Below are positions 7,664 through 31,241 of a stretch of DNA of 46,899 bases, piece by piece. Position 1 is the stretch's first letter, and each line of letters opens with the position of its first letter. The position numbers and the translations under genes are program-made. The notes beneath the pieces are model-generated. The model searched no databases. It saw nothing but the letters and a program-made list of their open reading frames with translations, and was not told the origin of the DNA. The stretch covers positions 1-46,899 of IMG/VR virus record IMGVR_UViG_3300036770_000424, one strand, 5' to 3'. The stretch is from a virus.

Positions 7664-7688
7664 CCCCGCCTCGTGCGGGGCTTTTTTT
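7664..7688 (+). terminator. Rho-independent terminator of the early operon
   Basis: Stem CCCCGC (7664-7669) and GCGGGG (7675-7680) with the 5-base loop CTCGT, followed by seven T (7682-7688). It is oriented for rightward transcripts. The T-run contains the stop codon of the convergent giant gene; on the opposite strand the hairpin lacks a T-tract, so it should mainly stop + strand transcription. Confidence 0.85.
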
Positions 7689-10600: not shown

Positions 10601-13600
10601 ATCGCGGGGCTAATAATCTTTAAGACTTCTTCCCATGACCGACGACCTTTTAAGGCATCGTTGAGCATTTCAATCGTGCTAGTGGTCTGTTCTTCCGCAG
10701 TTCGCCACGTCTGGGGGGTACTAATCGGACCTTTGATTCGTGGTCTTTTTGGCCCAGTTGCAGCAAATCGTGGCCCACGGGTAAGCGGATCCCTTGTACG
10801 CACTGCTGAGAATATCTTGGTTGCTTCAGCCATGGCGTTACCCGCCAAGTTATCAAGGCCGAATGTTTTAAGGATTGTTCGTACCAATCGCGTGAAGAAA
10901 GGTACCTTCTTAGGCTCGTACTTAAGATTTCTAAGAGTTTCTTGAAACTTCCTATTAGTAAAGACCTCGGCTATGAACTCGTAAATGTTGGTCATGCCAT
11001 AAGGCGTTTTGCCAATCTTCTCCACAGCAAAGTTGTACATGTCGGTTAGTTCTTTAACCGCATCACGCTGGGCAGCTGTCAAATCTTGTGGGCGTTTGCC
11101 GTAGGTATCTAAGGCGTATTCTGTCGCAGCATGCACAACCTCGTGCAGGAAAACCCTATAGCTCTTACCTGTCAAAGTATCGGTATCGAGAGCGATCTCA
11201 TCGAAGTCAGGGTAGTAAGCACCGGGAGAAGTCAGGCCCTCGATGTATTTCTTGTACGCCCCCGACACTGTGCCGAACTCGGCAATGACGGGACCAAGTT
11301 TGTAGTTTGGTTTCTGTAATTCAACTAAGCCCTGAGCCACAAGCTCTAGGGACTCGGAACGGTCATAATTCTTAAAGTACTTGTCGTAGACTTGTGGGTA
11401 GTGCATTTGCACGTACTTAAACAAGCGCTGTTGCTCAGGCTCCGACACATTATCAATAGACCGACGCACCAGTTCACGGCCCGTGTTAAAGCTTATGTTT
11501 GTCGGCAGGTTAAGCTCCGACAATGTTCTTGCTAGGTCAGCAGAGAAACCGCTTAGCTTCTGAGACGCAATGATCAACGCACCCTTGAGGTCGTTGTTTG
11601 CTATAGCCGACACCATCGTGGGATGGATGTCGTTACCCCCAAGACTTAGTTGGATTACCCTTTGTTCGAGTTCAGAGAGCGAAGCTTCGCCAGCATCGCG
11701 GGAACGCTCGCGCTCTTCTCCAATGTTTTCTGAGCGAAGGTCAATTCGTCTAGGAATTTCGGGTTCGCCCTCTCTTGCACCCCTAAATCCAGCGCCGCTG
11801 CTATCAACCCCTCCATCTCGGATTTGTTCTTCGCTAGAACTGGATAGGCGCTTTCCAATAGCTTTAAAGTTTCCATCTTTTAATTCCTTATTGAAGTACT
11901 CAAATACGTCCTTGTACCTAGTAAAAATTTGAGCGATGTTCTTTTTAATTTCGGGCCAGGTAGGATTTCCATCTAATACAGACGCCTCAAGCATCAAATT
12001 GATGTTTTGCATCTCGGCGGCAAAGTCATCGTCGTGGCTACGTTCCTGTACGTGCGCCAGTTCATGCACCATGGTATACCAAACACCGGAAGCTGCTCTA
12101 GAAGTATCTGTATATCGAGTCGCAAAAGGGTTTATAAATACGCCCTTGAAAGGGACTACGATGTTAACGCCCCTGTACTTTTCGTCTAAACTAACCCCAA
12201 CTGCTTGTTCAGGTAAGAGGACACTGTATTCCGGGTCTAAAGTCGCTACAAAATTGCGCAACTTTAAAAATTCATTACCAATATCAAATAAAAACCCATC
12301 AAACTTATCACCAAATTTTTCACGACCGACTTCGGTTATAGGCTTTACCTCGCCGGTTTCAGCCTTTTTAATTTGCTCTTCAATGTCATCAAGTAGGTTT
12401 CGGAACCTATTTCGCTCGGCCTCATCTGTAATGTTGGATAGTCTAGAAGTGAGGTGCTTATCCCACATCTCGTCTCTAATGACTTCTTTTTTATCTTTAA
12501 GCTCTTTAAGTTTTTGCTTATCTGCCTGCCCGATGTTAACGTTGATATGCAACATGACTTGGTCTTTATTAATCAAAGACTCGTCAATCTTTAAGTCATC
12601 TATTTCGATAGACGTTGCTTTTAGATCGTCGTCAGTAAGCTCAGGAACTTTTTTGTTTTTTACATAAAGAATTCCATCCTTAACTTCTATCTGATCCCCT
12701 TCAGAAATTTCAGACGCTCTAAAAATATCCGACTTTAAAGGAGGCGCTAATTGTATTGAGTCTGACGTTGTAACTTTTCCAGAAGGTTCTTTGTTTAAAT
12801 ACTGAATCGATCCAAAATCTTTTACGTCAGAAGCAAAATCAGCAGCTGCATAAGCAACTGATAAATACTTAAATATTTTATCGAAGCTATTACTTACAGC
12901 AGGAGAAAACCTTTGTCGGTTTAAGTCAAACGGGTAACGCGCATCCTCAGCTTTTACTTCCTTTTTAGGAGAAACGTCTACGTAAATCCGTCTTTGTATG
13001 GTTTGTTTGTTTGCTTTTATAGTCTCATTAAATTGCCATAAACCATTAGAAAGAACAGCTACGTTATCAGAGTAAAAATACGAGGTATTTTTAGATACAT
13101 AAATACGAGCAGTACCCCAATCAAAATTAACATTTGCAAATGTGGTGTAGTCTTCGTACGGGAACTTTGAGCCAATATCTACAGGCATTCCATTAAATTC
13201 AACGTCGATATCAGAAAACAACGGGCTTTCTCTCAAAACTTTGTAAGCGTTAGAGTGCCCACGTATTTCGATGTCTATATCTTTACCTGTTGCTGTATCC
13301 CTGTACGTTGCAGGCACTAATACTTCTGCGTAAGTACCATGCCCATCTGGAAACATACCTTTAATAGAACTAGGAATATTATCGCCGCGCCAAACAGTAA
13401 TATCTGGACTAAGGCTAGGATCTTCCATCGACTCTTCTAGCTGTGCCCCTGTGCTTACAAGTTCGCTGGCAACACCATCACGGAGGGTAATAACGCGAAT
13501 CGAATCGTTGTTAAACAAAAACTGCATCTTGGCAATACCCAAGCCACCCGAATCTCGTTCACCTTCTTTTTTAGTACCCGCAATCGTAAGGAACGTGGTC

Positions 13601-16062
13601 GACAAGGTTTCGGGACTCATCCCCGTGCCGTTATCTTTAACAGAAATTATTCTCGTAGTAGGGTCGACAGTGATATCGATTTTGCCTTTTACAAGCTGCC
13701 CCTTTTCCTGCATCGGCTTAATGGCATCAAAAGAGTTTTGCACCATCTCTTTAACCGACACAAACGGCATCTGCGAAGGTTCACCATAAAGCTTAGGCCC
13801 AAGCAGTTTACTTAACCGGCGTACGTTTGCACCAGCTTTAGCTTTAATCGTCTCGCCGTCTTCGTCATCCCGAGCAGGACGGACACCACCTTCATCGCCA
13901 GGAACACCACCGAGTTCAGCGGCAAGTTTGGCGATCTCTTCACTACGAGTTTGGGGTGTTGCAGTCGGCTCGGTCGGCTGTGCCGCAAAGAAGTCGTCCG
14001 ACTGCTTTTGAAGAGCATCAAGTTCTTGCTGCGTAATTAATCCAGCCTCAATTGCTTCTTGCAACCTAGCCGGATCTTGCGTTGCTGGGGTGTAAACAGG
14101 TGCCTTACGTTGCGCCTTGCTTAATCTTTCCGGTTCTCTACGAAGTAAATTAACAAATGCTGCAAGCTGCCTTTTCTTTGGTACTTCTGGAATAGCAGTA
14201 GCGACACCTTCTTCATAAGACTGTCGTAGGGCTTGCTTTTCCGCATCGCTAAGAGGAGGGGGTAGCGTTCCAAGAGCTTGCTCAAATTGATCCAGCGCAG
14301 TCTGCATCTCTTTGACTGCCCCATCAAACTGCGCTTGATTCGCCCGTTTGTAACCCTTATCCAGAGCCATCGCTTTTTGGACCAAGCGATTGGCTAAGCC
14401 ACCCGGCGCTAATTTACCTGCCTTTTGATACTCAGGCAGCATGGTTATCCTAGCCATCCCGACACGCGACATGCTGCCTTGAGGCTCGTCTAGGAATGGC
14501 TGATTACTTTGGCTAATGGCTTCGTTGTATCGAGCTAAAAGTTGATCAGCCCTCTGAAGCAACGGCATCGCAACCGCCGCCGCTTTTGGCATGTTTGCAA
14601 CGCCTGCCCCGTAATTGGTGCGGAAGTAGTTAATTAGATTTTCGTTATTGGTACCCGCAATATCGCGGATGATGAACGTATCGTCTGGGTTTACAGTCGG
14701 AGTTAATGGACCGAGCGTAGGCTCTTTTCGTGTTCCAGTGCTAACAACAGGCTCGACACCTGCGCCCAATCCTGTTGGTTCAATTCTTGTAGGTGCTCCG
14801 GCAGTTCCCGCAATGATCTCTTCTGCGCTAGACATTGGAACAGTAGGCTCACGTCCTCCGGACTCAGCTCGTAAACGTCTTGTTTTTTCGCTTTCGAAGT
14901 CATATAAAGCCCTTTCTACTTCTTCAGTAGTTGGGGCACGTCCCAACTGTTTCTTTAGATCTTTGTCGAGTTTCTTTAATTCTTCTAACGTAGCAGGAAC
15001 TGTATCTTCAGGCCGAATACGCCCAGCAGCTTCTTCAGCAAACAAATCTTCTTCGCTAACTAATTCTGTACCCGCAGCTTCTGCTTCTTCATCCGCAGCC
15101 AGCTTATCAAGATCGGCAATTGCTCGATCTTCTGGGGTATCAGATGCTTTTCTGCCTAAAACCTCTTTTGTGGTTTGTACTCCGGCACCTAAACCACCAC
15201 CAACAATAGCGCCTTCTAACCCAGCAAGAGCAGCTTCCTCAACATCAAAACCTCTTTTAGTGCCAGCAGTTTCTCCGGCGTAGGCGGCAACCTCTTCAGC
15301 AAACTCAGTCCCTGCCTGAATACCAGTTTCTTTTGCAATTCTTCCGGGTGCCGTTTTACCAGTGACACCTGCACCGGGCAACAACCTACCAGTAGCAAAC
15401 CTTTCAAACATTGCTTCAAACGTCGCAGCGGCAGCAGATGCCGCAACATCACCAACTGTGGCTTCTGCTAATGTTTTGTCGTCATTTTTTACCCGCTCTT
15501 TGAGGATCTCGTTAGTACGAGCCGCAACATAAGCAGGAGCCGCTACGTACGCCGCCGCCATATCTGGAACCGACGTAATAATACGTTCAGCAATAAATGG
15601 AAATATTGTCAAAGGGTTATCTGCAATATCCCCAAGTTGGGTACTAGGAGCGTAGCCTATATCCCTTTCGTAGTTTAAAGCGTTATCCGCAAAACTTTTA
15701 CCGACCGTGTCAACCGGAAGCTCAAATATCTGATCCTTGGGTAACCCCGTAAGATTAGACATCAGCTGAGCAAACGTGTCTGGTACTTCAGCAGCAGCAC
15801 CGCCTAACCCAGCAGCCCTAGCAACAAAACCTTTGAATGGGTTTTGCGTTTTTTCTATAAACGGTTCTTCAGGAGGAGTAAAGCGTTCCGGGGCTGGTTC
15901 TTCGAACGCAAGGGGTTGCGCGGGGGGTTGCGTTTTTTCTTCCTCCTCTTGCACACCACCGTATTGCTCAGCTAACGCCCTGTAATCAACAGCCGGAGTT
16001 GCGGTTTCAGGTTGAGGTTCTGCACGACCGCCAAACTCTTCGGCAAGTTTTCTGTAATCCAC
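7687..16062 (-). CDS. Giant polyvalent protein (GHKL ATPase, two zincin proteases)
   Basis: A 2791-residue multidomain protein of the polyvalent type, thought to be packed in the virion and injected with the DNA. The N-terminus has two copies of DYRxLAEEFGG (about 2-12 and 26-36), then Ala/Gly-rich helices and a disordered linker. Residues about 745-1000 hold a GHKL (Hsp90/MutL-like) ATPase: N-box EMVQNSFDA (E772), DNGTGMS (D810) and GGLGIAK (about 840). Two zinc-protease motifs follow, HELAH (1333-1337) and HEVVH (1640-1644). The C-terminal 1000 residues are mostly helical, with one hydrophobic stretch (about 2195-2225, FFYMLSAPFSALLNVIG). It is the last gene of the late operon, as expected for an ejection protein. 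Frame is intact throughout. Confidence 0.85.
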   Translation of the reverse strand: MDYRKLAEEFGGRAEPQPETATPAVDYRALAEQYGGVQEEEEKTQPPAQPLAFEEPAPERFTPPEEPFIEKTQNPFKGFVARAAGLGGAAAEVPDTFAQLMSNLTGLPKDQIFELPVDTVGKSFADNALNYERDIGYAPSTQLGDIADNPLTIFPFIAERIITSVPDMAAAYVAAPAYVAARTNEILKERVKNDDKTLAEATVGDVAASAAAATFEAMFERFATGRLLPGAGVTGKTAPGRIAKETGIQAGTEFAEEVAAYAGETAGTKRGFDVEEAALAGLEGAIVGGGLGAGVQTTKEVLGRKASDTPEDRAIADLDKLAADEEAEAAGTELVSEEDLFAEEAAGRIRPEDTVPATLEELKKLDKDLKKQLGRAPTTEEVERALYDFESEKTRRLRAESGGREPTVPMSSAEEIIAGTAGAPTRIEPTGLGAGVEPVVSTGTRKEPTLGPLTPTVNPDDTFIIRDIAGTNNENLINYFRTNYGAGVANMPKAAAVAMPLLQRADQLLARYNEAISQSNQPFLDEPQGSMSRVGMARITMLPEYQKAGKLAPGGLANRLVQKAMALDKGYKRANQAQFDGAVKEMQTALDQFEQALGTLPPPLSDAEKQALRQSYEEGVATAIPEVPKKRQLAAFVNLLRREPERLSKAQRKAPVYTPATQDPARLQEAIEAGLITQQELDALQKQSDDFFAAQPTEPTATPQTRSEEIAKLAAELGGVPGDEGGVRPARDDEDGETIKAKAGANVRRLSKLLGPKLYGEPSQMPFVSVKEMVQNSFDAIKPMQEKGQLVKGKIDITVDPTTRIISVKDNGTGMSPETLSTTFLTIAGTKKEGERDSGGLGIAKMQFLFNNDSIRVITLRDGVASELVSTGAQLEESMEDPSLSPDITVWRGDNIPSSIKGMFPDGHGTYAEVLVPATYRDTATGKDIDIEIRGHSNAYKVLRESPLFSDIDVEFNGMPVDIGSKFPYEDYTTFANVNFDWGTARIYVSKNTSYFYSDNVAVLSNGLWQFNETIKANKQTIQRRIYVDVSPKKEVKAEDARYPFDLNRQRFSPAVSNSFDKIFKYLSVAYAAADFASDVKDFGSIQYLNKEPSGKVTTSDSIQLAPPLKSDIFRASEISEGDQIEVKDGILYVKNKKVPELTDDDLKATSIEIDDLKIDESLINKDQVMLHINVNIGQADKQKLKELKDKKEVIRDEMWDKHLTSRLSNITDEAERNRFRNLLDDIEEQIKKAETGEVKPITEVGREKFGDKFDGFLFDIGNEFLKLRNFVATLDPEYSVLLPEQAVGVSLDEKYRGVNIVVPFKGVFINPFATRYTDTSRAASGVWYTMVHELAHVQERSHDDDFAAEMQNINLMLEASVLDGNPTWPEIKKNIAQIFTRYKDVFEYFNKELKDGNFKAIGKRLSSSSEEQIRDGGVDSSGAGFRGAREGEPEIPRRIDLRSENIGEERERSRDAGEASLSELEQRVIQLSLGGNDIHPTMVSAIANNDLKGALIIASQKLSGFSADLARTLSELNLPTNISFNTGRELVRRSIDNVSEPEQQRLFKYVQMHYPQVYDKYFKNYDRSESLELVAQGLVELQKPNYKLGPVIAEFGTVSGAYKKYIEGLTSPGAYYPDFDEIALDTDTLTGKSYRVFLHEVVHAATEYALDTYGKRPQDLTAAQRDAVKELTDMYNFAVEKIGKTPYGMTNIYEFIAEVFTNRKFQETLRNLKYEPKKVPFFTRLVRTILKTFGLDNLAGNAMAEATKIFSAVRTRDPLTRGPRFAATGPKRPRIKGPISTPQTWRTAEEQTTSTIEMLNDALKGRRSWEEVLKIISPAMWDTSAGVYRRVVLGFANLRQIDDLTKTKFPQISGAIRMIERMLAYRGNIMNSAEEIVTKWTKAQAKKPKQSQLLGRLMIEATIRGIDPDKPGAKTMNAALVQAWNRLDPEFKEIYREVRDFYSRAVNNMVREMKLRVARSPGTLSEKKAAIREINSKFGPDKLVQPYFPLRRFGKYWFQVGKGNFKEFYEFEDSLSRELAMRTREAQLRKGNAQQQALAGTIRKGNGLSELFSQNLTTTQVLKEAQDIIDNVTATTVGDAKKEMKDSLNQLIYILLPQQSMRKMFINRKAIQGASGDMLRVFATSAVHSAYQQSRFKFAEPFLNNLNNAVEYVDEFADRDRAAVYRDYITEVERRVPTILSNEDTSLAAVAAGKASELTFFYMLSAPFSALLNVIGVAQITMPYIGGRYGYVKTNALMLKNFGRYLATAPSRTMAPLATGSIMQMQFPSIVEGGKLTGVLKQAADRLIEEGQINISLTNDLMDMSGRPSELYTGRYNMVKKMLSGLFHQSERLGREVSLLTTFELAYEKFSKSPKKDLHGVIDRDAQGNPIMNTPEEAFELAIAEAKDIVGLSLGDFTRQMKPRYFTPPLLSVITKFKQYSVLATYAIARNFYFTVAAPFRKKEIEEFRQQMMRDKLSPQVIDQRIAEAEAQRKELYKEGRRRLAGILAVTYLLGGNEASPFYSIGLGTIVKLLADEDDDEFFDWENWLKNYMEEELGGAAGDLFAEMGMNPETAEAAGRFVGGSLQRGLATELTGGELAGRVSLDPKNLWYREGRYSPDVRESIVEDVIANAGPVVGLGFNWVDAYRLFQEGQYQRAFERGAPALVSKPVTAARIAEEDARTASGIKLAENFSAWELAMQAIGLQPTRLAQAQKSAIETKTYEQKVKDRRNTLLDRLWLERDSTDGFNETLERIMEFNSKYPNYAIDDTTISDSFERRAEGQATAEAIGGQFDKRFTPEALQMLRYGRE
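11655..11876 (-). CDS. Candidate overprinted gene inside the polyvalent gene (73 aa)
   Basis: In the +1 frame relative to the giant gene there is an ATG at 11876 preceded by AAGGA with 8-base spacing, then 73 codons ending TAA. The product (METLKLLESAYPVLAKNK start, KFLDELTFAQKTLEK middle) has the balanced composition of a real helical protein. In the same bases the giant protein reads as an R/E/S/G-rich, low-complexity linker. Either this is an overprinted small gene, or the ancestral frame here was this one and two compensating shifts changed it. Chance openness is possible because other +1 stretches of the giant gene are also open. Confidence 0.35.
   Translation of the reverse strand: METLKLLESAYPVLAKNKSEMEGLIAAALDLGVQERANPKFLDELTFAQKTLEKSASVPAMLAKLRSLNSNKG
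14703..14903 (-). CDS. Candidate overprinted gene inside the polyvalent gene (66 aa)
   Basis: A second +1-frame ORF in the giant gene, starting at ATG 14903 after GAAAGGG (6-base spacing). The product is protein-like and helical: YELSPEDVSLLFQCLAQ, then ELPEHLQELNQQDWAQ, ending LEHEKSLRSVH. In the giant frame the same bases encode a T/G/A/P/E-rich disordered linker (about residues 387-453), the kind of region that tolerates overprinting. It has no recognised motif. Confidence is limited because openness alone is not proof. Confidence 0.35.
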   Translation of the reverse strand: MTSKAKKQDVYELSPEDVSLLFQCLAQKRSLRELPEHLQELNQQDWAQVSSLLLALEHEKSLRSVH

Positions 16063-22556: not shown

Positions 22557-23021
22557 TTAGGCTACCAGTCCTTCAAGATAAACTGTTTTACCGTTTTGTT
22601 TCGTTGCGGTCAAGACCTGCTTTTTGTTATCCGCAGGGTTGTAGGAGACATGCACCCAGCCCGAGTCAGGCACACCGGGGGTGTAGAACTCAAGAATTAG
22701 TTGACGGAACTCGCAGTTGTCCTTAATCCACTGAGCCAGATCAGCGTTGGCAACCCCAGGAATCTCAATATCTGCGGCAAACCCCTTGCAATGGTCTGAT
22801 GTCGTACTGCCGCCCACCTTGGCGTTGACCAACGGATGCCTGAATCCACTGTTAACTTTGACCCCCATGCCGTAGTAATCACGGACTTTCTGGAGAACGT
22901 TTTCGCAGAGGATACGAAGGTTTTCAATTTCAGAACTAGAGGGGTCGTTTGCCATACCAAAGCGCAAGGCCGTCTCGGACTTGGTCATTTCAGAGAGGGT
23001 GAAGTTTTGAGTCAGATTCAT
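22557..23021 (-). CDS. M15-family peptidase endolysin
   Basis: A 154-residue D-Ala-D-Ala carboxypeptidase-like (Peptidase M15) enzyme that should cleave peptide cross-links of peptidoglycan at lysis. The zinc ligands are seen: H77 in TTSDHCKGFAADIE (SxHxxGxAxD pattern), D84, and H124 in GWVHVSY. The length suits a single catalytic domain without a wall-binding module or signal peptide, so it needs a holin to reach the wall. It lies directly after two membrane proteins, forming a lysis cassette, and overlaps the preceding one by 4 bases. Confidence 0.9.
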   Translation of the reverse strand: MNLTQNFTLSEMTKSETALRFGMANDPSSSEIENLRILCENVLQKVRDYYGMGVKVNSGFRHPLVNAKVGGSTTSDHCKGFAADIEIPGVANADLAQWIKDNCEFRQLILEFYTPGVPDSGWVHVSYNPADNKKQVLTATKQNGKTVYLEGLVA

Positions 23022-23458
23022 TTCTTCTTCTCCATAATCTCATCAAGCTGGGCGCTCTTTTCCTTGCTTCCTGCGCTCGATCCAAAATAGTATCCCAACA
23101 CCATTGTGACCGCAGAGGTCAGCGCACCCAAGACGTAAATCAAGATGTCTTTGGAATCGGCATCCACATCAACAAAGATAATCACGCCAAACAAAATAAA
23201 GGTTAACCCTACCGTACCAAGCGCAAGGATTGGAGTAACAATTTTATTAAGCGTGGGTGCGCTGGCGCTTGTGGCAATCTGCACCTCCCGATCACGGGCA
23301 GACTGCATCTCTTTAACGTGGGCTTCCAACTGGGCTAGTTCACCCTTTTGCGCCATCTCCATGAGACTGGCTTGGGCCTTTGCCTTGGCTTCAGGATCGG
23401 GTAGTACCTTGTCCAGAATCTTCTCCCCGATGTTTAGAATCGCTCCGATTGGCACCAT
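23018..23458 (-). CDS. Holin-like membrane protein (3TM-type)
   Basis: A 146-residue protein with a soluble helical N-terminal part, two strong transmembrane segments at about 75-96 (ILALGTVGLTFILFGVIIF) and 105-128 (IYVLGALTSAVTMVLGYYF), and a charged C-terminus (DEIMEKKK). The arrangement matches the holin-like 3TM family seen in gene-transfer-agent and phage lysis modules. It would form holes or depolarise the inner membrane to release the M15 endolysin encoded next. The start overlaps the previous stop (TAATG). Confidence 0.7.
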   Translation of the reverse strand: MVPIGAILNIGEKILDKVLPDPEAKAKAQASLMEMAQKGELAQLEAHVKEMQSARDREVQIATSASAPTLNKIVTPILALGTVGLTFILFGVIIFVDVDADSKDILIYVLGALTSAVTMVLGYYFGSSAGSKEKSAQLDEIMEKKK

Positions 23459-23730
23459 TATTCTTTCTCCTTCATGGCGTTAATGGCTGAATACGCACCT
23501 TTACGGCCTACGATTCCTCCGATGGCCCCAATGCATAGCAACATAATGTCTTTCATTATCCCAAGAAAGGCTTCATCAATAGGTGCAATCTTCTCCATGT
23601 CTTGGTCTACAAACATCACGGCAAACAGTATGCAAACGACGGAAATCGAAAGGATTGCCGCCAGGACAAGAACAATGGTCGCCCAGACACGTACTTCTAT
23701 TTGCTCTGTGGTTAAGTCTTTAAACAACAC
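23458..23730 (-). CDS. Small two-span membrane protein, possible second holin
   Basis: A 90-residue protein starting at GTG 23730. Two hydrophobic segments (about 16-41, VWATIVLVLAAILSISVVCI; and 56-78, FLGIMKDIMLLCIGAIGGIVG) are separated by an acidic loop, and the C-terminus is basic (MKEKE). It sits between the 52-residue secreted protein and the holin-like gene. A holin or antiholin partner role is plausible from context, not proven. Its start overlaps the small gene's end by 11 bases. Confidence 0.65.
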   Translation of the reverse strand: MLFKDLTTEQIEVRVWATIVLVLAAILSISVVCILFAVMFVDQDMEKIAPIDEAFLGIMKDIMLLCIGAIGGIVGRKGAYSAINAMKEKE

Positions 23731-23878
23731 CTTTGCTCTCCATACGAATGCACTGAGTGTTTAAACCGGGACTCTCAATACGAATGGCCTGCCTGCGGAT
23801 TTCACACTCTGCCTTGGTTGAGTAAGATTCAATCCCAACCCCATCTTGCAAAAAGACCACCAGTAGAAAGTAAATCAT
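23720..23878 (-). CDS. Small exported two-Cys protein in the lysis cassette (52 aa)
   Basis: ATG at 23878 overlaps the previous stop (ATGA) and the frame closes with TAA at 23720-23722. The product begins MIYFLLVVFLQDGVG, a short signal-like hydrophobic stretch, followed by a polar part with two cysteines (AECEIRRQ and LNTQCIRM) that could form a disulfide in the periplasm. Position among holin and endolysin genes suggests an outer-membrane or periplasmic lysis accessory, such as a spanin-like protein, but no lipobox is present. Function unknown. Confidence 0.6.
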   Translation of the reverse strand: MIYFLLVVFLQDGVGIESYSTKAECEIRRQAIRIESPGLNTQCIRMESKGVV

Positions 23879-24396
23879 TTTGCGTACCTGAAGATAAAGT
23901 CAATCGCCATGTATAGAACCAAGCACCCAACTACGACTACGGCTGAGACACCACCATAAAGAAACATGTCGTCCCAGAACTTCTTTTGCATCATCTCCTG
24001 CTCTTGCTTCATGCGGATGCGGTCTGCCCTGATTTTACGGCGCATCTCTAAAAACTTGCGGTACCCGTCTAGGCTTCCGTATCCACCCTCAAGGTTACAA
24101 AATGCCCCATACAAGAACTCGTGGCGTATTTCCTTCTCCATCTCCATGAGCTTATGCTCGGCTTCAAAGGCGTTAAAGGCTTCTTGCGTGTCGCTGCCAA
24201 AATCTAACTTACCGAACAGCTTAGGTTTCTGGGGCTTGTTCTTGGCATCTGTAATGTGTTGCTCAAGCTGGTCGGCTAAACCGACGTATTTAGAAAGTTG
24301 TGACCAAACACCTTCGGCCTCCTGAGCAAACTCGGAGGCTTTCTTGATGCCGTTCCATACCGCCGAGGCTGCTGCAAGAAGAGTAATTGGGTCCAT
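23875..24396 (-). CDS. Coiled-coil protein with C-terminal membrane anchor
   Basis: A 173-residue protein: helical N-terminus (LAAASAVWNGIKKASEFAQEAEGVW), a charged coiled-coil-like middle (about 80-140, EMEKEIRHEFLYG and MRRKIRADRIRMKQEQ), and one C-terminal transmembrane segment at about 147-169 (GGVSAVVVVGCLVLYMAIDF). It opens the lysis gene group. A soluble rod tethered by a C-terminal membrane helix could act in lysis or as a structural membrane contact. No catalytic motif and no firm family. Confidence 0.7.
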   Translation of the reverse strand: MDPITLLAAASAVWNGIKKASEFAQEAEGVWSQLSKYVGLADQLEQHITDAKNKPQKPKLFGKLDFGSDTQEAFNAFEAEHKLMEMEKEIRHEFLYGAFCNLEGGYGSLDGYRKFLEMRRKIRADRIRMKQEQEMMQKKFWDDMFLYGGVSAVVVVGCLVLYMAIDFIFRYAK

Positions 24397-24398
24397 GT

Positions 24399-24977
24399 CT
24401 ACTCAATAAGTGTGTACCACCCAGTTGCAATGTACTTGTCATGCGTGTAAACGGGGTTACCACGATGAACGTGTGTAAATGCTGCGGGCCAAAGCACACA
24501 ACGTCCAGCTTTAGGGTTCACTCTTATGCCCTGCCACAAGAACTCCGTTTCCCCTTCATTATAAGGAATGTCGTTTAAATAGATAGTCCACACCAAAACA
24601 CGACTTGCTTCTTTTACACAGTCCTGTTCGCAATGCCAGATGTGATAGCCGCCACGTGGGGGAGTTCGTTGTAGTTTAACCTCTAGGGATGCGGCTTTAA
24701 GACCCTTAAGAACAAAGTAATGCTCACAATAAAGGGCCAAACACCCATGCAGCCGATCACCAACCAACTGCTGTATTTCTGGTAGGTGGTGACTAGCATA
24801 AATTGCATAATCTTTTCGTTTTAGCTCCCCGTTGTGTATATGTTGGCTTGCCTCTACTTTTTCTTTTTCGTTCGCTTCAACATTATTAAAAGAATCAATA
24901 ACGTAATGACACTCCTCTTCAGAAAGAGCGTTGTCATAAATTCCAATGAAATCTTGATGGCTAACTATGTTTGGCAT
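24399..24977 (-). CDS. 2OG-Fe(II) oxygenase (prolyl-hydroxylase-like)
   Basis: A 192-residue 2-oxoglutarate/Fe(II) dioxygenase. The iron ligands are probably H115 and E117 in YHIWHCEQD (an HxE form of the usual HxD) and a distal His at 169 or 171 in FTHVHRGNP. GGYHIWHCE and the C-terminal DKYIATGWY match phage members of the family. It would hydroxylate a protein or other substrate using O2 and 2OG. It is the last gene of the accessory island before the lysis genes, adjacent by one base to the next oxygenase. Confidence 0.8.
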   Translation of the reverse strand: MPNIVSHQDFIGIYDNALSEEECHYVIDSFNNVEANEKEKVEASQHIHNGELKRKDYAIYASHHLPEIQQLVGDRLHGCLALYCEHYFVLKGLKAASLEVKLQRTPPRGGYHIWHCEQDCVKEASRVLVWTIYLNDIPYNEGETEFLWQGIRVNPKAGRCVLWPAAFTHVHRGNPVYTHDKYIATGWYTLIE

Positions 24978-25544
24978 TTATATGAACCAAGTAATGATTG
25001 AATACCGAACGCCTTTAGTGACGGGCATAATCTCGTGCGGGTACATAAAATTTGATGGAAAAAGTATTGCTGAACCTTTTGGTATCTTTGTAGCAACTTT
25101 ACGATCAAAGAAAGCAAACTCACCACCTTCGTAGTCATCGTTTAGAGCAAAAGAACAACTTAATATTCTTGGGTTTTGTAAATAATGATCTGTGTGTTGA
25201 CTGTAAAAACTTCCCTCGAAGTAACGCAACATACAATAACCAGAATCTCCTTGAACAGCCAAATCAGTAATATTGTAAGTTTCAAGGTAATCGCGCAAAA
25301 CATATGAAGCACTTGTATATAAATAATTATCTAATTCTTTTCTTGCTGTATTTTTATTAATAATATTTGGGTCTGATATATTTAACGAATCGCATTTACG
25401 TATTGTTTCATCAACACCTTTTGCTACTTGTGCTATAACAAATTCGTTACTATTAGAATATTCTTCTAAAATTTTTGAAATTAAATTATCTGTAATAGCA
25501 TTTGGAACTATATGAATATAATCTTCTAATTTATTATTTAACAT
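24978..25544 (-). CDS. 2OG-Fe(II) oxygenase (P4H-like)
   Basis: Start ATG 25544, preceded by TTGAGG six bases earlier; a TTG at 25556 extends the frame but is not supported. The 188-residue protein has a classic iron site H117-x-D119 (YSQHTDHYLQ), a distal H170 (FMYPHEIMPV) and a 2OG-binding Arg180 (GVRYSIITWF). This is the prolyl-4-hydroxylase pattern. The coding DNA is very AT-rich (11 G/C of 60 in 25441-25500). It overlaps the cupin end by 11 bases, in the same operon as the carbamoyltransferase. Confidence 0.85.
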   Translation of the reverse strand: MLNNKLEDYIHIVPNAITDNLISKILEEYSNSNEFVIAQVAKGVDETIRKCDSLNISDPNIINKNTARKELDNYLYTSASYVLRDYLETYNITDLAVQGDSGYCMLRYFEGSFYSQHTDHYLQNPRILSCSFALNDDYEGGEFAFFDRKVATKIPKGSAILFPSNFMYPHEIMPVTKGVRYSIITWFI

Positions 25545-25986
25545 AAAAAACCTCAATCTTGGGTATTTTTCCTGTAAATGAAGTTGGTGGGTTTTTAACT
25601 ACATTTAAATTATTACCATTATAATTTTCAGGTGGACTCCACCAATGCGACACGTCAAAAGGAACCATTGCACCATTTGGTATCATTGATGGATCAACAA
25701 TATCTTCTATTTTTTCACTTGTTCTCATAGCATGTATACAGTAAGCAACTGTGTTATCTTCTAAAGAAGTAAATGCGTGTTCCGTATCTTTATTAATATA
25801 AATCATATGAGGTGCTTTAAAAATAGTTTCCTCCCCATTTGCCACGCATTTAACCGAACCACTGGCTAATAAAGTTAAGTGGTCAAAACTATGTGTATGG
25901 GTATGCTCAGTATCACCAGTTTTTTCAAAATGCATCATTCTGCTATATAAATTAGCAACGCACCCTAATTTTACGCTAATTGCCAT
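25534..25986 (-). CDS. Cupin-domain protein
   Basis: A 150-residue single-domain cupin. The start at 25986 follows a strong AAGGAGG ribosome site; the frame is open further (26007) into the carbamoyltransferase end. Metal ligands are visible in cupin motif 1, TEHTHTHSFDHLTLLASGS (His at 28, 30, 32), and motif 2, KAPHMIYINKDTEHAFTS. It may bind iron or another metal and act as an oxygenase, isomerase or sugar-modifying enzyme. It overlaps the carbamoyltransferase gene by 11 bases, suggesting the two act together. Confidence 0.8.
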   Translation of the reverse strand: MAISVKLGCVANLYSRMMHFEKTGDTEHTHTHSFDHLTLLASGSVKCVANGEETIFKAPHMIYINKDTEHAFTSLEDNTVAYCIHAMRTSEKIEDIVDPSMIPNGAMVPFDVSHWWSPPENYNGNNLNVVKNPPTSFTGKIPKIEVFYVK

Positions 25987-27673
25987 TACAATCCTCCTTA
26001 TTAACATTCTTAACTATTAAATTTATTTCTGGTAAATATAAATAATTTATTTTTGACCGTTTTAGTGTATTTATAGCATCCTCTAAACTATCTACTATGG
26101 GTTCACCTGCTAGGTTAAATGAAGTGTTAAAAAGTAATGGGATAGACGTTAACTTATAAAATTCATTTATTACATCGTAAAAATTTTTATTTTGCGTCTC
26201 GTTTACAGTTTGTATTCGGCAAGTGCCATCAACATGTACCACAGACGGTACAACCTGCTTCTTTTCTTCTTTGCACTGTACAGCGTACATCATAAACGGA
26301 GAAGAAGTGAGTGATTTCATATGAAACCATTCATTGGCTTTGTGTTCTAAAACTGACGCAGCAAAAGGTCTAAACCACTCTCGACCCTTTACCGTGTTTA
26401 CAATTTCTTTACCGTTTGAAACTGAAGGATCAAAAAGAATACTACGATTTCCTAACGCTCGGGGGCCAGACTCTGCGCTTCCTTGATACAAAGCAACAAT
26501 GTTTCCGTTTTTTAATAATTGGGCCACATTTGCTGCGGTAGCAGTTTGACTTTCAATGTCTTTTGGAAGATCATAATTTGGTTTGCCTCCAAGATAAACA
26601 TGATTCTGCTTTCTGATCGTTGTGTCCTTAGTTTTCTTATGCCAAATATATTTAGCAGCGCCTATTGAAATCCCCGCATCGTTAGCCACCGGCTCAATGT
26701 ATAAAGAAATGCCAAAGGGAAGGTGATCTAAGTATTCATAATTGGCTACGCAATTTAAAGCGTATCCTCCCGATAGACAGACATTTTTTGCTCCAGTTTT
26801 TTCTACCGCATTTAATATAAATTTGATGGCCTGTTCTTTTACTTGATCTTGAACAACCTTTGCCAAATTAGCCAACTTTTGAAAGTTTTTATCTTTAAAG
26901 TATGCTAAGTGATCCCAACCAAAATCGGGAGCATTTTTAACCAACACAGGATTAATTTTACCCCTAACAAAAAGGTCTGGTACGTTTTTATCTGCTACTC
27001 CGTACGTAGACATTCCCATAACTTTTCCAGCATCTAATTCATCAAAACCACAAAGCAAAGACAAAACTTGGAAAGGATACCCAAAAGATTGACACACATC
27101 ATCAATATGAAAGTTTGTGCCATTTAAATTTTTATTAACTTTAAGTGAATCTCCGTACGAGTGACCCATTTTTGTAACGCAATCAATTTTATCGGGATAT
27201 TGAAATGTGTAAACCGAATGGGATTCTATACAACTATAGGAAATTTGATTTTCAATTACATTAAATTTAGATCCAGTTCCATCAAGAACTATGCAAACTG
27301 CTTCCTCAAACCCAGAATTATAAAATGCTTGAGATGCATGACACAAATGGTGGTAATCGTTTAGTAAAAAAGTTTCGTATTCTACGGATTTTAAATAATT
27401 TTTTATTATAATTAAGTCATACAAAGTGCAATTTTTGTAATCTTGATAATCATTAATTATAGTTGCTGGTAAGACTCCGGATATACATAAATTATTTATG
27501 TTCGTTGCATTTTTAGTAACTTTTGTTAACGAGCACAAAGGAATTCTATCTCTAACTTTTCTAGACAAACGCTCTTCTTGTAAATGTAGAATAAGATCAC
27601 CGTCAGATAGTAGGCAAGTAGATGCGTCGTGCCCATATGACACACCTATTGTATCGACTATTGTTTTTTGCAT
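25976..27673 (-). CDS. Carbamoyltransferase (NodU/CmcH-type)
   Basis: A complete 565-residue O-carbamoyltransferase. N-terminal domain: GHDAS (14-18), HHLCH (108-112), DGTGS (131-135), KVMGMSTYG (217-225), SGGYALNCVA (301-310). C-terminal YrdC-like part: ESGPRALGNR (401-410), GREWFRPF (430-437), HVDGTCRIQTV (480-490), LLFNTSFN (513-520). These match NodU/CmcH enzymes that carbamoylate sugars or small molecules using carbamoyl phosphate and ATP. All the motifs I recognise are intact, so it is likely active. The AT-rich composition and the cupin/oxygenase neighbours suggest acquisition as a unit. Substrate is unknown. Confidence 0.9.
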   Translation of the reverse strand: MQKTIVDTIGVSYGHDASTCLLSDGDLILHLQEERLSRKVRDRIPLCSLTKVTKNATNINNLCISGVLPATIINDYQDYKNCTLYDLIIIKNYLKSVEYETFLLNDYHHLCHASQAFYNSGFEEAVCIVLDGTGSKFNVIENQISYSCIESHSVYTFQYPDKIDCVTKMGHSYGDSLKVNKNLNGTNFHIDDVCQSFGYPFQVLSLLCGFDELDAGKVMGMSTYGVADKNVPDLFVRGKINPVLVKNAPDFGWDHLAYFKDKNFQKLANLAKVVQDQVKEQAIKFILNAVEKTGAKNVCLSGGYALNCVANYEYLDHLPFGISLYIEPVANDAGISIGAAKYIWHKKTKDTTIRKQNHVYLGGKPNYDLPKDIESQTATAANVAQLLKNGNIVALYQGSAESGPRALGNRSILFDPSVSNGKEIVNTVKGREWFRPFAASVLEHKANEWFHMKSLTSSPFMMYAVQCKEEKKQVVPSVVHVDGTCRIQTVNETQNKNFYDVINEFYKLTSIPLLFNTSFNLAGEPIVDSLEDAINTLKRSKINYLYLPEINLIVKNVNKEDCNGN

Positions 27674-27684
27674 TACTAACCTAG

Positions 27685-28224
27685 TTATTTTTGGATGTCA
27701 AAAAACGCATAAGAACGATGTCCGTTTGCAAGTACGTAATGAAAAAAAACCTGCACTTGGCTGTTTCCTTCGTAAGGTTTTCTCCAATGTTCTGCAACAC
27801 ACCCTAAATACATCATTGCGTCTCCGGGGTTTAACAAAACACTTACCTCTTCACCGCTAAGTTTTTGAATCCAAATAGGCCAATCTGTTTCGGTTTTTTG
27901 AAGGTTAACTGTAAGGCTAATCTCGCAAGCGTCTCGGTCCCGATGTCGGGCTAACATCTCACCCTTACTATAAATTCTACCGTATGTATATGTCGGCAAT
28001 ACATCTTCACCACACAACTGACTTACTTGAGGTATTTTTTTAACCAACATTTTAACGCATGGTAGAAAGTTGTATATGGCTGGAGAAGACGGACACTGAG
28101 AGTCTAAACCTAACTTTCCATCTCTTTGTGCAATAAAAAAAGCCTGTGCTAATTCGTCTGCTTCTTGAGTAGCTAAGAAGTTTGGTACGTAAAGAAAGTT
28201 GTTTTGCTTAAGACTGGGGTTCAT
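27685..28224 (-). CDS. 2OG-Fe(II) oxygenase-like protein
   Basis: Start ATG 28224 overlaps the previous stop (ATGA); the frame extends to a TTG at 28230 with no support. The 179-residue protein has H94-x-D96 (ARHRDRDACEISLT) and a distal His at 146 (VAEHWRKP), the facial triad of 2OG-Fe(II) oxygenases; the Arg for 2OG is not obvious. It starts the accessory island next to the tail-fibre chaperone. Sequence differs widely from the other two oxygenases, so the three are unlikely to be recent duplicates. Confidence 0.75.
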   Translation of the reverse strand: MNPSLKQNNFLYVPNFLATQEADELAQAFFIAQRDGKLGLDSQCPSSPAIYNFLPCVKMLVKKIPQVSQLCGEDVLPTYTYGRIYSKGEMLARHRDRDACEISLTVNLQKTETDWPIWIQKLSGEEVSVLLNPGDAMMYLGCVAEHWRKPYEGNSQVQVFFHYVLANGHRSYAFFDIQK

Positions 28225-28691
28225 TGCCAAATTGCTTCAGGTTTAATAGGCCACGAAGTAATTTCTTCCTGCGGTGGATTTAAAACAATTGCTCTAAGTG
28301 CGGCACGGTAAGCATCCCACTCGGTTTGGTTTTGCAGGTTTGTGTCGGGGAGTGCGGCCCAATCAGATTGTTGAAGCAAGTTCTTGGATTTATTTTCATT
28401 GATTGCAGCCCATTGTTCTGGCGTAGGTGGGGGCGGGTTTTTGTAGATGTAGTCAAAAGCATCAAACTTTTCTACACACTTGTTAACCCATTCTGGAAAG
28501 TTTGTACCGACAACCTGTTCATTTTCTCGGGAGTCTGTAAATTCAATCCAGCCTTCGCCGTTTTCCCATTGAAAAGCCCAGACATCCTCGGGTATTCCAC
28601 AATCAGAGAGGTCTAAATCAGAGTAACCCTCTGCGTTTTTGTAAACCGCTTTATCGGCAATAATCACTGTTAGTCTATAAAGTTCACTCAT
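28221..28691 (-). CDS. Tail-fibre assembly chaperone-like protein
   Basis: A 156-residue protein whose C-terminal half shows the pattern of tail-fibre assembly proteins: LLQQSDWAALPDTNLQ, then WDAYRAALRAIVLNPP. The N-terminal part (SELYRLTVIIADKAVYKN) is beta-rich. Such proteins help fold and trimerise fibres and lie beside fibre genes, as here. It overlaps the flanking genes on both sides (ATGA). Confidence 0.75.
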   Translation of the reverse strand: MSELYRLTVIIADKAVYKNAEGYSDLDLSDCGIPEDVWAFQWENGEGWIEFTDSRENEQVVGTNFPEWVNKCVEKFDAFDYIYKNPPPPTPEQWAAINENKSKNLLQQSDWAALPDTNLQNQTEWDAYRAALRAIVLNPPQEEITSWPIKPEAIWQ

Positions 28692-29029
28692 TTTTTACCT
28701 CTTACAAGTTTTGGTTTAGCAGGAGTAATATCAATCTGTTTTGCCGGTGGTGCGCTAGTTAAGGCTACCGCTTGTAGTAAAGTTTTCTGAGACTCTACTT
28801 GCGCCTTGACCATTTCATTTCTAAAACTTTCCACGGCAGCGCCCGTTTGTCTTTGTTGCCCAGAATTTTCAATCATCAATAAGGGCATCCAAGCAATGGC
28901 GCACTGCCACTCTTCTACTTCTTTACCTGTGTTCGTGTCATACCCAGCTACTTTTGTAAACCAAGCACACTGCAAACCCGCGCAGTTCTTTTTTATTAAA
29001 GGGCAAAACTCGCCGTTTTTAAGTTGCAT
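28688..29029 (-). CDS. Small Cys-rich phage protein, possible metal binding
   Basis: A 113-residue protein with four cysteines near the start (C9, C16, C21, C43) in EFCPLIKKNCAGLQCAWF and WQCAIAWM, suggesting a zinc or iron-sulfur site. The C-terminal half is a polar helix and a Pro/Lys-rich tail (ITPAKPKLVRGKK). The Cys arrangement is reminiscent of recurrent small phage proteins next to fibre genes; function unknown. It is placed between the fibre and chaperone genes, so fibre maturation is possible. Confidence 0.65.
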   Translation of the reverse strand: MQLKNGEFCPLIKKNCAGLQCAWFTKVAGYDTNTGKEVEEWQCAIAWMPLLMIENSGQQRQTGAAVESFRNEMVKAQVESQKTLLQAVALTSAPPAKQIDITPAKPKLVRGKK

Positions 29030-29031
29030 TA

Positions 29032-30048
29032 TTAAGCCTTAGTAGCGGTAATCACATCAAGGTACTTGACTGCTAGATTGATTGCAGAACCCGAAAAATT
29101 ACCCGAAGCTGGGTGAAGGTGATTACCACCTGAAGCGTTGTGGGTGTGAGGTGAGCCTGCAAAAGAAGCAGATGCTGGGTGAAAGTGATTGCCACCTGAA
29201 CCCGGGTGAGAGTGAGCGCCGCCACCGCCTGTGCTAGATGTAGCACTAGAAAGTATGAAACCGACGTTTGGAGCGCCGCCTCCGCCGGGACCGCCACCGC
29301 CATAAGCGTGAGAGTGGGATGGGATAGTTGGAACTGCTAGAGTTGTGTTGCCAACCGATACCGGCGCTGTTGCATTTCCTGTAGAGACTGAAATATTACC
29401 GCCCTGAGTTGCACCAACTACAGTCACAGGAACTGTGGCATTACCAGTAGAAACTGAGATGTTGCCTGTAGGAGTTTGGGAGGCAAAAGATGTCGTAAAA
29501 TCTACACTACCGCCCGTCGAAGCAGAGCCGGTGACAACACGGAGAGCATGGTTGTTGTAATTTGAAGTGTCTTTAGTCCATCCAGTAGGAGCGGTCGTCT
29601 GGGCAAAAATCATCCGAGTGCCAGCGTCAAAAGAAACCGAAGGAGTGACAGCATCAATAACATTTGTGCCGTCGTTGTACACAAAAGCCTTGGTTCCCGC
29701 CGCAACAACTGCGCCTGTGCCTGCGGTGTTCTTAACGGTCAGGTCATCAGCAAGGTCATTTTGGATTAAATAAAACTTCTCAATCTGGCACCCCGAGCCA
29801 AGAATCAAGTTACGAGCGCCGCCCGATGTTCCTGTGCAAACTAGCCTAAGGTTACGAGCCGTCTGAGAAGCGTTTGTGTTGGTAAGCGTTAGGGTTACGT
29901 CAGCACTTGCAAAAGTGACTGTTGCCGAGCCAGTAATGGCCTCTCCAATTGCTGTGCCAAGGTTTGTGTTGGTTGTAGTACCCCACGTACCAACCTGTTC
30001 GCCGGTACCAATCAGTTCGATTTTAAGGTCAGAATAAGTTGAGGCCAT
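29032..30048 (-). CDS. Tail fibre with collar-like domain and HxH tip
   Basis: A 338-residue fibre. The N-terminus (TYSDLKIELIGTGEQVGTWG) is a recurrent phage fibre start, the middle has Thr-rich strands, and residues 147-160 (IFAQTTAPTGWTKD) match the tail-collar domain. Two copies of QGGNISVSTGNAT-like units follow (about 199-232). The C-terminal 100 residues are Gly-rich with five HxH motifs (HSH, HSH, HFH, HTH, HLH), like the iron-binding tip of T4 gp37. It probably contacts the host receptor. GGAG precedes the start. Confidence 0.75.
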   Translation of the reverse strand: MASTYSDLKIELIGTGEQVGTWGTTTNTNLGTAIGEAITGSATVTFASADVTLTLTNTNASQTARNLRLVCTGTSGGARNLILGSGCQIEKFYLIQNDLADDLTVKNTAGTGAVVAAGTKAFVYNDGTNVIDAVTPSVSFDAGTRMIFAQTTAPTGWTKDTSNYNNHALRVVTGSASTGGSVDFTTSFASQTPTGNISVSTGNATVPVTVVGATQGGNISVSTGNATAPVSVGNTTLAVPTIPSHSHAYGGGGPGGGGAPNVGFILSSATSSTGGGGAHSHPGSGGNHFHPASASFAGSPHTHNASGGNHLHPASGNFSGSAINLAVKYLDVITATKA

Positions 30049-30089: not shown

Positions 30090-30102
30090 ATGACAGTGTC
30101 AT
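30090..30102. other. 13-base palindrome between fibre and repeat genes
   Basis: ATGACAGTGTCAT is a perfect 6-base inverted repeat with one central base. It overlaps the stop codon of the repeat protein and lies upstream of the tail-fibre gene (on the - strand). It may be an operator or a weak hairpin. No T-tract follows. Role unproven. Confidence 0.3.
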
Positions 30103-31241
30103 GGTGCGGTTGGTACGGTACTCCAATTTGCCGGTTGTGCGTTATTAATAACTTCCCATAACAACCTTGTAACAAATTCGTCAGCCGCATCAACACTTTC
30201 ATTAACCTGCGCTAAAAAGATTGCAGCAGCAATTACGGTGTCTAAACCTATTGTTCCTTCTACAACCGCAGCATTAAACTCACCCAAAGAAGCTATTTCA
30301 TCAGCGCCGTTTGCAGCTTCAACAATTTGGGCAATAAACTCAACCAGCGCTTCTACCTGATCTGAGCCTTGCGCTGTTTCTAAAACAGAAGATCCAAACT
30401 CAACGACCGCAAATATCTCAGCTGTCCCATCTGCGGCTTCGGATACTTCCGAGAAAAACTCGACCGCACCAAAAACAGTATCGGAGCCTTCCGCACCCTC
30501 AGAAACAGACACCGCAAAACTTCCTAAAGATGCTACTTGATCTGATGCCTCTGCCGCTTCAACAACAGACGTTAAGAAAGTAGCAAGCGCTTCTACTTGA
30601 TCCGCCCCGGTCGTTGCTTCACTAATCTGACAATTAAACTGGGCTAGTGCTTCTGTCTGATCTGCACCTGCTGCTGCTTCTAATATGTTGTTTAAACTGA
30701 AAAACCCACCATTGGTCTGATCTGCTCCATTTGCAGCTTCAGAAATTTCACAAGCAAAATCTTGGCGTGTTTGTACAGAGTCACTGCCCTGCGTGTTTTC
30801 AGCCATACTTGTCTGAAATGTTGCTTGTGCTACTGTTTCATCAGAACCCGTAGAAGCTTCTATAACGGCTGTCTGGAAAGTCACTAAAGTTACTATTTCG
30901 TCAGATCCATTAGCGCCCTCAGAAACCGCAGCGTTACTTTCTGCAAGTCTTGCAACTACCGCGTCACTGCCGTTTGCTACCTCTGAAGCTTCAGCAAAAA
31001 ACTCAACATCTCCAAATACTTGATCAGCCCCCTCCCCAGCCTCTGCAATATCACAGAAGTAGTTTGGTATAGAGGAGAACTGATCTGCCCCGCTTCCAGC
31101 TTCTACAACTGCTCGGCTGTAGGTATTACCTCCATCCATCTGGTCAGCGCCTGATGTGGCTTCAACAACAGCACGATCAAAAACAGAGCCGCCCCAACCG
31201 GCTTGGCCCCACGTACCGGATGACCAGCCGCCATCAGACAT
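30099..31241 (-). CDS. 17-repeat virion protein (20-residue units)
   Basis: A 380-residue protein with a Gly/Trp-rich N-terminus (22 residues, SGTWGQAGWGG), then 17 tandem units of 20 residues (one has 21) and a short tail. The consensus is about hxVxEaaxGaDqVxaLxxF; examples are TSVVEAAEASDQVASLGSFA and CQISEATTGADQVEALATFL. Conserved Glu, Gly, Asp and Phe at fixed places suggest a stacked beta structure such as a long thin fibre or solenoid. It lies next to the tail fibre, so a virion appendage or host-binding rod is likely. Function unknown. Confidence 0.75.
   Translation of the reverse strand: MSDGGWSSGTWGQAGWGGSVFDRAVVEATSGADQMDGGNTYSRAVVEAGSGADQFSSIPNYFCDIAEAGEGADQVFGDVEFFAEASEVANGSDAVVARLAESNAAVSEGANGSDEIVTLVTFQTAVIEASTGSDETVAQATFQTSMAENTQGSDSVQTRQDFACEISEAANGADQTNGGFFSLNNILEAAAGADQTEALAQFNCQISEATTGADQVEALATFLTSVVEAAEASDQVASLGSFAVSVSEGAEGSDTVFGAVEFFSEVSEAADGTAEIFAVVEFGSSVLETAQGSDQVEALVEFIAQIVEAANGADEIASLGEFNAAVVEGTIGLDTVIAAAIFLAQVNESVDAADEFVTRLLWEVINNAQPANWSTVPTAP
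30153..31175 (-). repeat. Tandem 60-base coding repeat array (17 units)
   Basis: The array encodes 17 units of 20 residues (unit 4 has 21) in the repeat protein. Units share spacing and key residues but are strongly diverged at the DNA level, so it is an old, selected array rather than a recent slippage product. Confidence 0.75.

Follow-up and report, generated by a model that had tools for sequence, protein, structure and literature searches.

A candidate tail-fibre maturation cassette with predicted prolyl hydroxylases and a carbamoyltransferase in a 46,899-base virus record

The virus record IMGVR_UViG_3300036770_000424 (46,899 bases; “the window” below means this whole stretch) carries, next to the genes for a tail fibre and its assembly chaperone, three 2-oxoglutarate (2OG)-Fe(II) oxygenases (OG_a, OG_b, and OG_c), a NodU/TobZ-type O-carbamoyltransferase (CT), and a cupin-like protein. 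We favour, with a probability of roughly 60%, the reading that these genes form a tail-fibre maturation cassette and that OG_a and OG_b act as hydroxylases on fibre-tip prolines. This reading is favoured because of the gene order, a recurrent partnership with one type of fibre, the predicted folds, the catalytic residues, and the co-variation of tip prolines with OG_a. The features concerned, with lengths in amino acids (aa), are as follows.

29032..30048, minus strand: tail-fibre protein of 338 aa with HxH motifs in its C-terminal tip, the proposed oxygenase substrate; its N-terminal part is common to relatives.
29329..29331, minus strand: codon of fibre Pro240 (V-P-T-I-P-S-H-S-H), the proline column with the strongest OG_a association.
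29203..29205, minus strand: codon of fibre Pro282 (G-G-G-G-A-H-S-H-P), the second OG_a-associated proline column.
28688..29029, minus strand: g113, a small Cys-containing protein of 113 aa (CPLIKKxCxxxxC), with no family match in Pfam, PHROG, or NCBIfam.
28221..28691, minus strand: tail-fibre assembly chaperone (Phage_tail_APC; PF16778, 2.7e-9).
27685..28224, minus strand: OG_a, a 2OG-Fe(II) oxygenase with a fold predicted as prolyl-4-hydroxylase (start ATG 28224 or, further upstream, TTG 28230; phrog_2954, 5e-51).
25976..27673, minus strand: CT, a NodU/TobZ-type O-carbamoyltransferase of 565 aa (PF02543 and PF16861; phrog_1601, 4e-149).
25534..26007, minus strand: cupin-like protein (Cupin_2, 9.7e-6, below the family cut-off).
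24978..25556, minus strand: OG_b, a prolyl-4-hydroxylase-like 2OG oxygenase (TTG at 25556 or ATG at 25544; PF13640, 1e-15).
24399..24977, minus strand: OG_c, a 2OG oxygenase in which HCE replaces HxD, as judged by eye (PF13640, 4e-10).

A profile search with OG_a recovered 78 non-redundant loci (designated here by L and a number where one has to be named), most of which are metagenome fragments, in which absence of OG_a means absence within the fragment. A fibre-family gene is present in 70 of these loci, a fibre chaperone in 54 (at a median of 19 bp from OG_a), g113 in 53, another 2OG oxygenase gene in 51, and a cupin in 20, and CT adjoins OG_a in 11; the usual order is fibre, g113, chaperone, OG_a, and OG_b. 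When the search was made with the fibre tip only, a 2OG gene lay within 4.5 kb downstream in 40 of the 52 non-redundant loci. OG_a and OG_b are also fused as one polypeptide of ~370–410 aa in many lineages. Judging from these gene neighbourhoods, OG_a and OG_b are standard partners of one fibre-tip type. An earlier note on this DNA had proposed that the five enzymes act jointly, perhaps on a fibre; the recurrence of OG_a loci with a fibre, a chaperone, and a further 2OG gene agrees with both ideas, and the genes do not occur only separately in related phages.

Fibre tips followed by a 2OG gene were compared with the remainder over 2920 short patterns, with no prior hypothesis. The top pattern was P-x-x-P, found in 37 of the 40 tips with a 2OG gene and in none of the 12 without; the corresponding motif reads (S/T)-P-x-I-P-S-H-x-H in the former and (S/T)-(A/S/T)-x-(I/M)-P-S-H-x-H in the latter. 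The pattern appears to track OG_a rather than any 2OG gene: among the pooled non-redundant tips, the proline of P-x-[IM]-P-x-H is present in 36 of 37 with OG_a and in 2 of 34 without. With these columns excluded from the tree, a Pagel test indicated dependent evolution (likelihood ratio (LR) 43.7, p = 7e-9), as it did for the second proline (LR 38.0, p = 1e-7). The fibre of the window has both prolines (P240 and P282) and HxH motifs at residues 245–247, 279–281, 288–290, 301–303, and 310–312.

Among PDB sequences, the profile of OG_b matches prolyl 4-hydroxylases (P4Hs; 3itq/5hv0, 1e-9) and PHD2 (1e-6). The best Foldseek matches of its AlphaFold2 model (predicted local distance difference test (pLDDT) score 94.8) are a PHD (6f0w), the Pseudomonas putida P4H with EF-Tu (4iw3), an algal P4H with a (Ser-Pro)5 peptide (3gze), and PHD2 with HIF peptides, and in its iron triad and the distal Arg for 2OG, H121, H174, and R184 are invariant and D123 nearly so (28 sequences; numbered from the TTG). 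OG_a matched no family in Pfam or NCBIfam and had no significant sequence hit in the PDB; it is assigned to the oxygenases because of its HxD...H triad (H96, D98, and H148, invariant in 33 sequences; numbered from the TTG) and its AlphaFold2 model (pLDDT 95), which was made from an alignment leaving out two rows from named phage records and which has as best folds the P. putida P4H (4j25/4iw3), SnoN, and PHD2. In view of the fold matches, the conserved triads, and the profile matches of OG_b, both enzymes are predicted to be protein-type prolyl hydroxylases. Many phage records label the OG_a family as “ferrochelatase” (phrog_2954, phrog_3531, and T4-GC 615; e.g., SSSM5_043 in NC_015289); we rejected this label for OG_a, which has no such Pfam match and whose model has the fold of a 2OG oxygenase. 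The enzyme families named in the earlier note are thus upheld by Pfam for OG_b, OG_c, and CT and by the fold model for OG_a, whereas the cupin match is weak, at 25.7 bits for Cupin_2 (cut-off 27.2) and 21.9 for AraC_binding (cut-off 21.1).

In the scheme that we favour, the fibre, the chaperone, and the oxygenases would be made late from the same run of genes, and OG_a and OG_b, as predicted Fe(II)/2-oxoglutarate prolyl hydroxylases, would hydroxylate the prolines flanking the HxH motifs (P-x-I-P-S-H-x-H and H-x-H-P); prolines of the variable receptor-facing loop may be further targets. HxH motifs bind iron in the tip of the T4 long tail fibre, and hydroxylation of the tip might tune its stability, its metal-binding geometry, or its binding chemistry. 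In this phage and a minority of its relatives, the TobZ-type CT would cap a hydroxyl using carbamoyl phosphate and ATP, most simply a hydroxyl made by OG_a or OG_b. Of the targets first suggested, namely a fibre, a glycan, or a host surface molecule, the fibre and specifically its tip prolines are retained, and the other two are less favoured.

The assignment of CT comes from matches to Carbam_trans_N (5e-21) and Carbam_trans_C (2e-60), which are Kae1-like at the N-terminus and YrdC-like at the C-terminus, and its sequence relatives in the PDB are 7xb6, GdmN, and TobZ. Ten phage CTs share H108, H112, D131, D332, R405, K429, R435, R486, N516, and S518 without exception, which we take, from their roles in TobZ, to be metal- and carbamoyl-phosphate-site positions. 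No match was obtained to the aspartate or ornithine carbamoyltransferase families, the matches being to the Carbam_trans families and, weakly, of HypF type. The CTs beside OG_a represent at least four sequence types and occur in several forms: the window type, an opposite-strand cyanomyovirus type, the L175, L210, and L231 types, and a split form of 189 and 354 aa (L207, L215, and L218). In the CT tree, the deep supports of which are mixed, the CTs of the window and L467 lie in a virus branch, the L231 type forms its own clade, and that of L175 falls among cellular sequences; because of this placement, CT appears to have joined the module more than once and from different branches. A recent host origin of CT was rejected, as cellular matches do not exceed ~34–35% except for one marine metagenome-assembled genome (39%) and viral matches reach 44%. 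Since CT requires a hydroxyl and repeatedly arrives beside OG_a, its acceptor may be made at the module, and we tentatively propose that CT carbamoylates a hydroxyl made by the oxygenases. GT25-like glycosyltransferases, which act on hydroxyl groups, follow fused OG_a in several loci (weak Pfam match) and in the isolate S-SCSM2R. At 930–13588 of L231 and 6300–14001 of L546 (S-SCSM2R), GT25-like glycosyltransferases and radical SAM enzymes accompany fused OG_a, in L231 next to fibre genes and CT; these sets may represent a richer modification pathway.

The acceptor of CT may possibly be a sugar instead, given that the cyanomyovirus CT branch lies among heptose-sugar genes. The oxygenases and CT would then modify a host surface molecule or glycan (O-antigen or capsule) late in infection, e.g., for progeny release or as a block to re-adsorption, and the tip prolines would simply follow the type of receptor. 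Bacterial surface glycans are known to contain O-carbamoyl sugars, heptose-sugar and GT9-like genes surround the cyanomyovirus CT homologs in a region flanked by fibre genes, and a GT9-like gene (resemblance by eye) occurs in 69 of 80 viral CT loci. However, scans of the window recognised no sugar-pathway or glycosyltransferase gene, OG_a and OG_b resemble protein prolyl hydroxylases, and the association falls on prolines of the fibre. We therefore regard modification of a host surface molecule or glycan as unlikely.

A second alternative is that phages swap the tip together with the 2OG genes as one host-range unit, in which the prolines are a neutral clade marker and the enzymes act on some other late target, such as a host protein. 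The genes are adjacent, and because the 3′ end of the fibre gene neighbours the OG genes, recombinational co-inheritance can explain part of the association; several other tip columns are likewise associated with OG_a, down to 1e-10. Moreover, the P4H fold leaves the substrate open, and the enzyme with the nearest fold, the P. putida P4H, acts on EF-Tu. These points all weigh against hydroxylation of the tip prolines, as do the following. 2OG oxygenases of several further subfamilies occupy the same site. A second scan, from a tip without 2OG genes, supplied 21 new independent tips for replication, and the preset test for any 2OG gene gave 2 of 5 against 0 of 15 (p = 0.053); the link of loop proline content to 2OG genes of any kind was not replicated in this second tip set (n = 5 vs. 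12); and a split of the new set by OG_a, a restriction imposed post hoc, gave 2 of 2 with OG_a against 0 of 18 without (p = 0.005). There are also exceptions, namely the tip of L286, which has OG_a and no proline, and that of L316, which has the proline and no OG_a. Upstream of the motif, the L316 tip is 99% identical to the tip of L288, which has OG_a. In a further exception, L263 (G025, 1449–1991), the OG_a copy contains one internal stop and the adjoining tip keeps the proline, which may reflect either recent decay or a sequencing error. A whole-record search for OG_a found none in 25 of 27 records, the other two being those of L263 (the broken copy) and L286.

Against linkage as the sole explanation stand several comparisons. 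As a control for clade and linkage, 126 tip columns were tested by Fisher's test and by a tree-aware LR, and the two prolines ranked first and second in both (1.7e-15 and 2.1e-14 by Fisher's test; LR 40.7 and 35.0, against 19.9 for the next column and a median of 4.3); tip columns nearer the OG genes show a weaker association than these two. Among 34 disjoint nearest pairs, 31 have the proline solely in the member with OG_a, none shows the reverse, and three are ties. Distant tips beside fused OG_a are likewise rich in proline (9% vs. 3% where 2OG genes are lacking, p = 3e-14). Two isolates from outside the set can be added: in S-SCSM2R the fused OG_a lies ~39 kb from the tip genes SSCSM2R_232 and SSCSM2R_233, both of which have proline at the first site, in the motifs STPQIPSH and TTPEIPKH, and one of which also has it at the second; CRP-361, with no OG_a or PF13640 match genome-wide, has Ala and Gly at the two sites. 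Linkage without hydroxylation of the tip is, in our judgement, improbable.

Two further readings are disfavoured. In cyanophage papers, CT has been explained by pyrimidine synthesis and the 2OG enzymes by DNA repair or 2OG signalling (PMC3037559, PMC9146016, PMC10436341), and the present genes might accordingly be metabolic auxiliaries, CT feeding pyrimidine synthesis and the oxygenases tuning 2-oxoglutarate; this is very unlikely, as CT consists of Carbam_trans_N/C and lies outside the aspartate carbamoyltransferase families, and the genes stand beside a fibre rather than metabolic genes. Such interpretations appear to lack support from family assignment and gene neighbourhoods. Least likely of all is DNA hypermodification, in which CT would carbamoylate hydroxymethylcytosine like the MetaGPA enzyme and the oxygenases would supply the hydroxyl: CT belongs to the same superfamily as the proven phage 5-hydroxymethylcytosine (5hmC) carbamoyltransferase (PMC8670742) and adjoins thymidylate synthase in S-RIM44, but the record, which may be incomplete, has no thymidylate synthase (PF00303) match, the oxygenases are P4H-like, CT has G408 and R410 at the positions of TobZ G421/R423, where the 5hmC enzyme has C and T, and the genes are located among structural genes.

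The base composition of the block is deviant, with a GC content of 35.8% (33.5% at 24978–27673) against 46.7% for the whole record; same-sized stretches elsewhere in the record have a mean of 47.8% (standard deviation 1.8, minimum 42.8%). By gene, the values are 30% for OG_b, 33% for the cupin, 34% for CT, 40% for OG_a, 43.2% for OG_c, and 43.5% for the chaperone. The G/C counts given in the earlier note (11 of 60 and 27 of 60) are exact, but its view of a single AT-rich island gained as a block was not sustained. In 96% of 132 loci, OG_a is AT-richer than its fibre, chaperone, and g113 neighbours, and composition is therefore no evidence for a single acquisition; AT-richness was rejected as a mark of one acquired block. 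Relatives were fetched by means of the 640-aa structural protein and the endolysin, and their intervals between fibre and lysis genes were compared; no DNA-level relative was found among phage isolates. The interval is a hotspot, in which many relatives have OG_a, OG_b, and cupins and others have a second large adhesin (533–1555 aa) instead. That of the relative L012 contains a cupin, OG_a, another 2OG-like gene, OG_b, and OG_c and lacks CT; identity with the window is 89% for OG_c and ~50% for OG_a and OG_b. From these identities and the absence of CT there, OG_c appears to be an older backbone gene, OG_a, OG_b, and the cupin to have been repeatedly swapped, and CT to be an addition. Glycine-rich or collagen-like (GPP) fibre proteins adjoin 2OG oxygenases at the hotspot in L018, L020, L041, L054, and L105; such an adhesin was rejected as a general partner of OG_a, since 27 of 71 OG_a genes have one upstream, compared with 23% of control open reading frames (ORFs) in the same loci.

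Several known systems resemble parts of this arrangement. The collagen prolyl hydroxylase of Chlorella virus PBCV-1 (vCPH, 5c5t), a structural match for both OG_a and OG_b, is likewise a viral 2OG enzyme of P4H fold; however, it belongs to an algal virus, has neither a fibre-chaperone partner nor a tandem fusion, and has no established fibre role. The P. putida P4H, the best fold for OG_a and second for OG_b, is of similar size but is a cellular enzyme with EF-Tu as target and no link to a phage or fibre. TobZ, GdmN, and NovN share the two-domain NodU-type architecture and conserved active-site positions of CT; by contrast, they act on small molecules, whereas CT lies in a virus branch and is ~30% identical to most cellular homologs. 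The 5hmC carbamoyltransferase (PMC8670742) caps a hydroxyl on a phage polymer, as proposed for CT, although it adjoins thymidylate synthase and differs at the two specificity positions. In the cyanomyoviruses S-SSM5, S-MS29, and P-RSM4, OG_a, other 2OG genes, and CT also adjoin fibre genes, but these are phages of an unrelated type with CT on the opposite strand and a glycine-rich adhesin (32–34% Gly) instead of the HxH tip. In L167–L170, the cyanomyovirus CT is found with a heptose kinase, an isomerase, an epimerase, and a GT9-like protein between tail-fibre genes, and S-SSM7 also has a tryptophan halogenase.

The terminase of the record is 48–57% identical to those of HTVC027P/HTVC023P-type pelagiphages, DSL-LC04, and Pag-Yong1. 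ORFs were called mechanically. The order on the minus strand is a repeat protein (30099–31241), the tail fibre, g113, the chaperone, OG_a, CT, the cupin, OG_b, OG_c, g173, two small ORFs, a holin, an M15 endolysin, and the 640-aa structural protein. The five ORFs are thus placed as originally described, with the chaperone on one side and the holin and M15 endolysin on the other, the latter within the following stretch.

22557..24396, minus strand: downstream flank with g173, o52, tm90, holin, and M15 endolysin, from profile scans.

The chaperone and OG_a overlap by 4 bp, OG_a and CT are separated by 11 bp, CT and the cupin overlap by 32 bp, the cupin and OG_b overlap by 11 bp, and gaps of 0 and 2 bp follow OG_b and OG_c, respectively. 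Within the block, the number of promoter and terminator sites was not above that of shuffled sequence. The protein directly upstream of the fibre (380 aa) consists of short repeats (EAxxGADQ...), and relatives have other repeat proteins there. Elsewhere, a 2791-aa ORF (7687–16062) has DarB-like and virion-RNA-polymerase-like PHROG matches, and the GC content falls to 38–39% at 12,000–13,500.

2OG-Fe(II) oxygenases are among the commonest “auxiliary metabolic genes” of marine phages; S-SZBM1 carries nine of them (PMC9146016). Proposals for their role differ (DNA repair, 2OG signalling), and in a Baltic Sea study, the use that viruses make of prolyl 4-hydroxylase was termed cryptic (PMC9301287). 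No report of hydroxylated phage receptor-binding proteins was found in the open-licence literature. It is conceivable, although we consider it rather doubtful, that many aquatic phages possess a dedicated system for post-translational modification of their receptor-binding fibres, composed of prolyl hydroxylases encoded next to fibre and chaperone and of interchangeable hydroxyl elaborators (CT or GT25-type enzymes), that diversifies the chemistry of the host-recognition tip. The present data give a large subset of the phage 2OG oxygenases a concrete candidate substrate and candidate positions. If tip prolines are indeed hydroxylated, many phage records would need correction where a gene is labelled carbamoyltransferase or “ferrochelatase”, and phages would recognise their hosts with the involvement of modified residues that a genome sequence does not reveal, with consequences for the prediction of host range.

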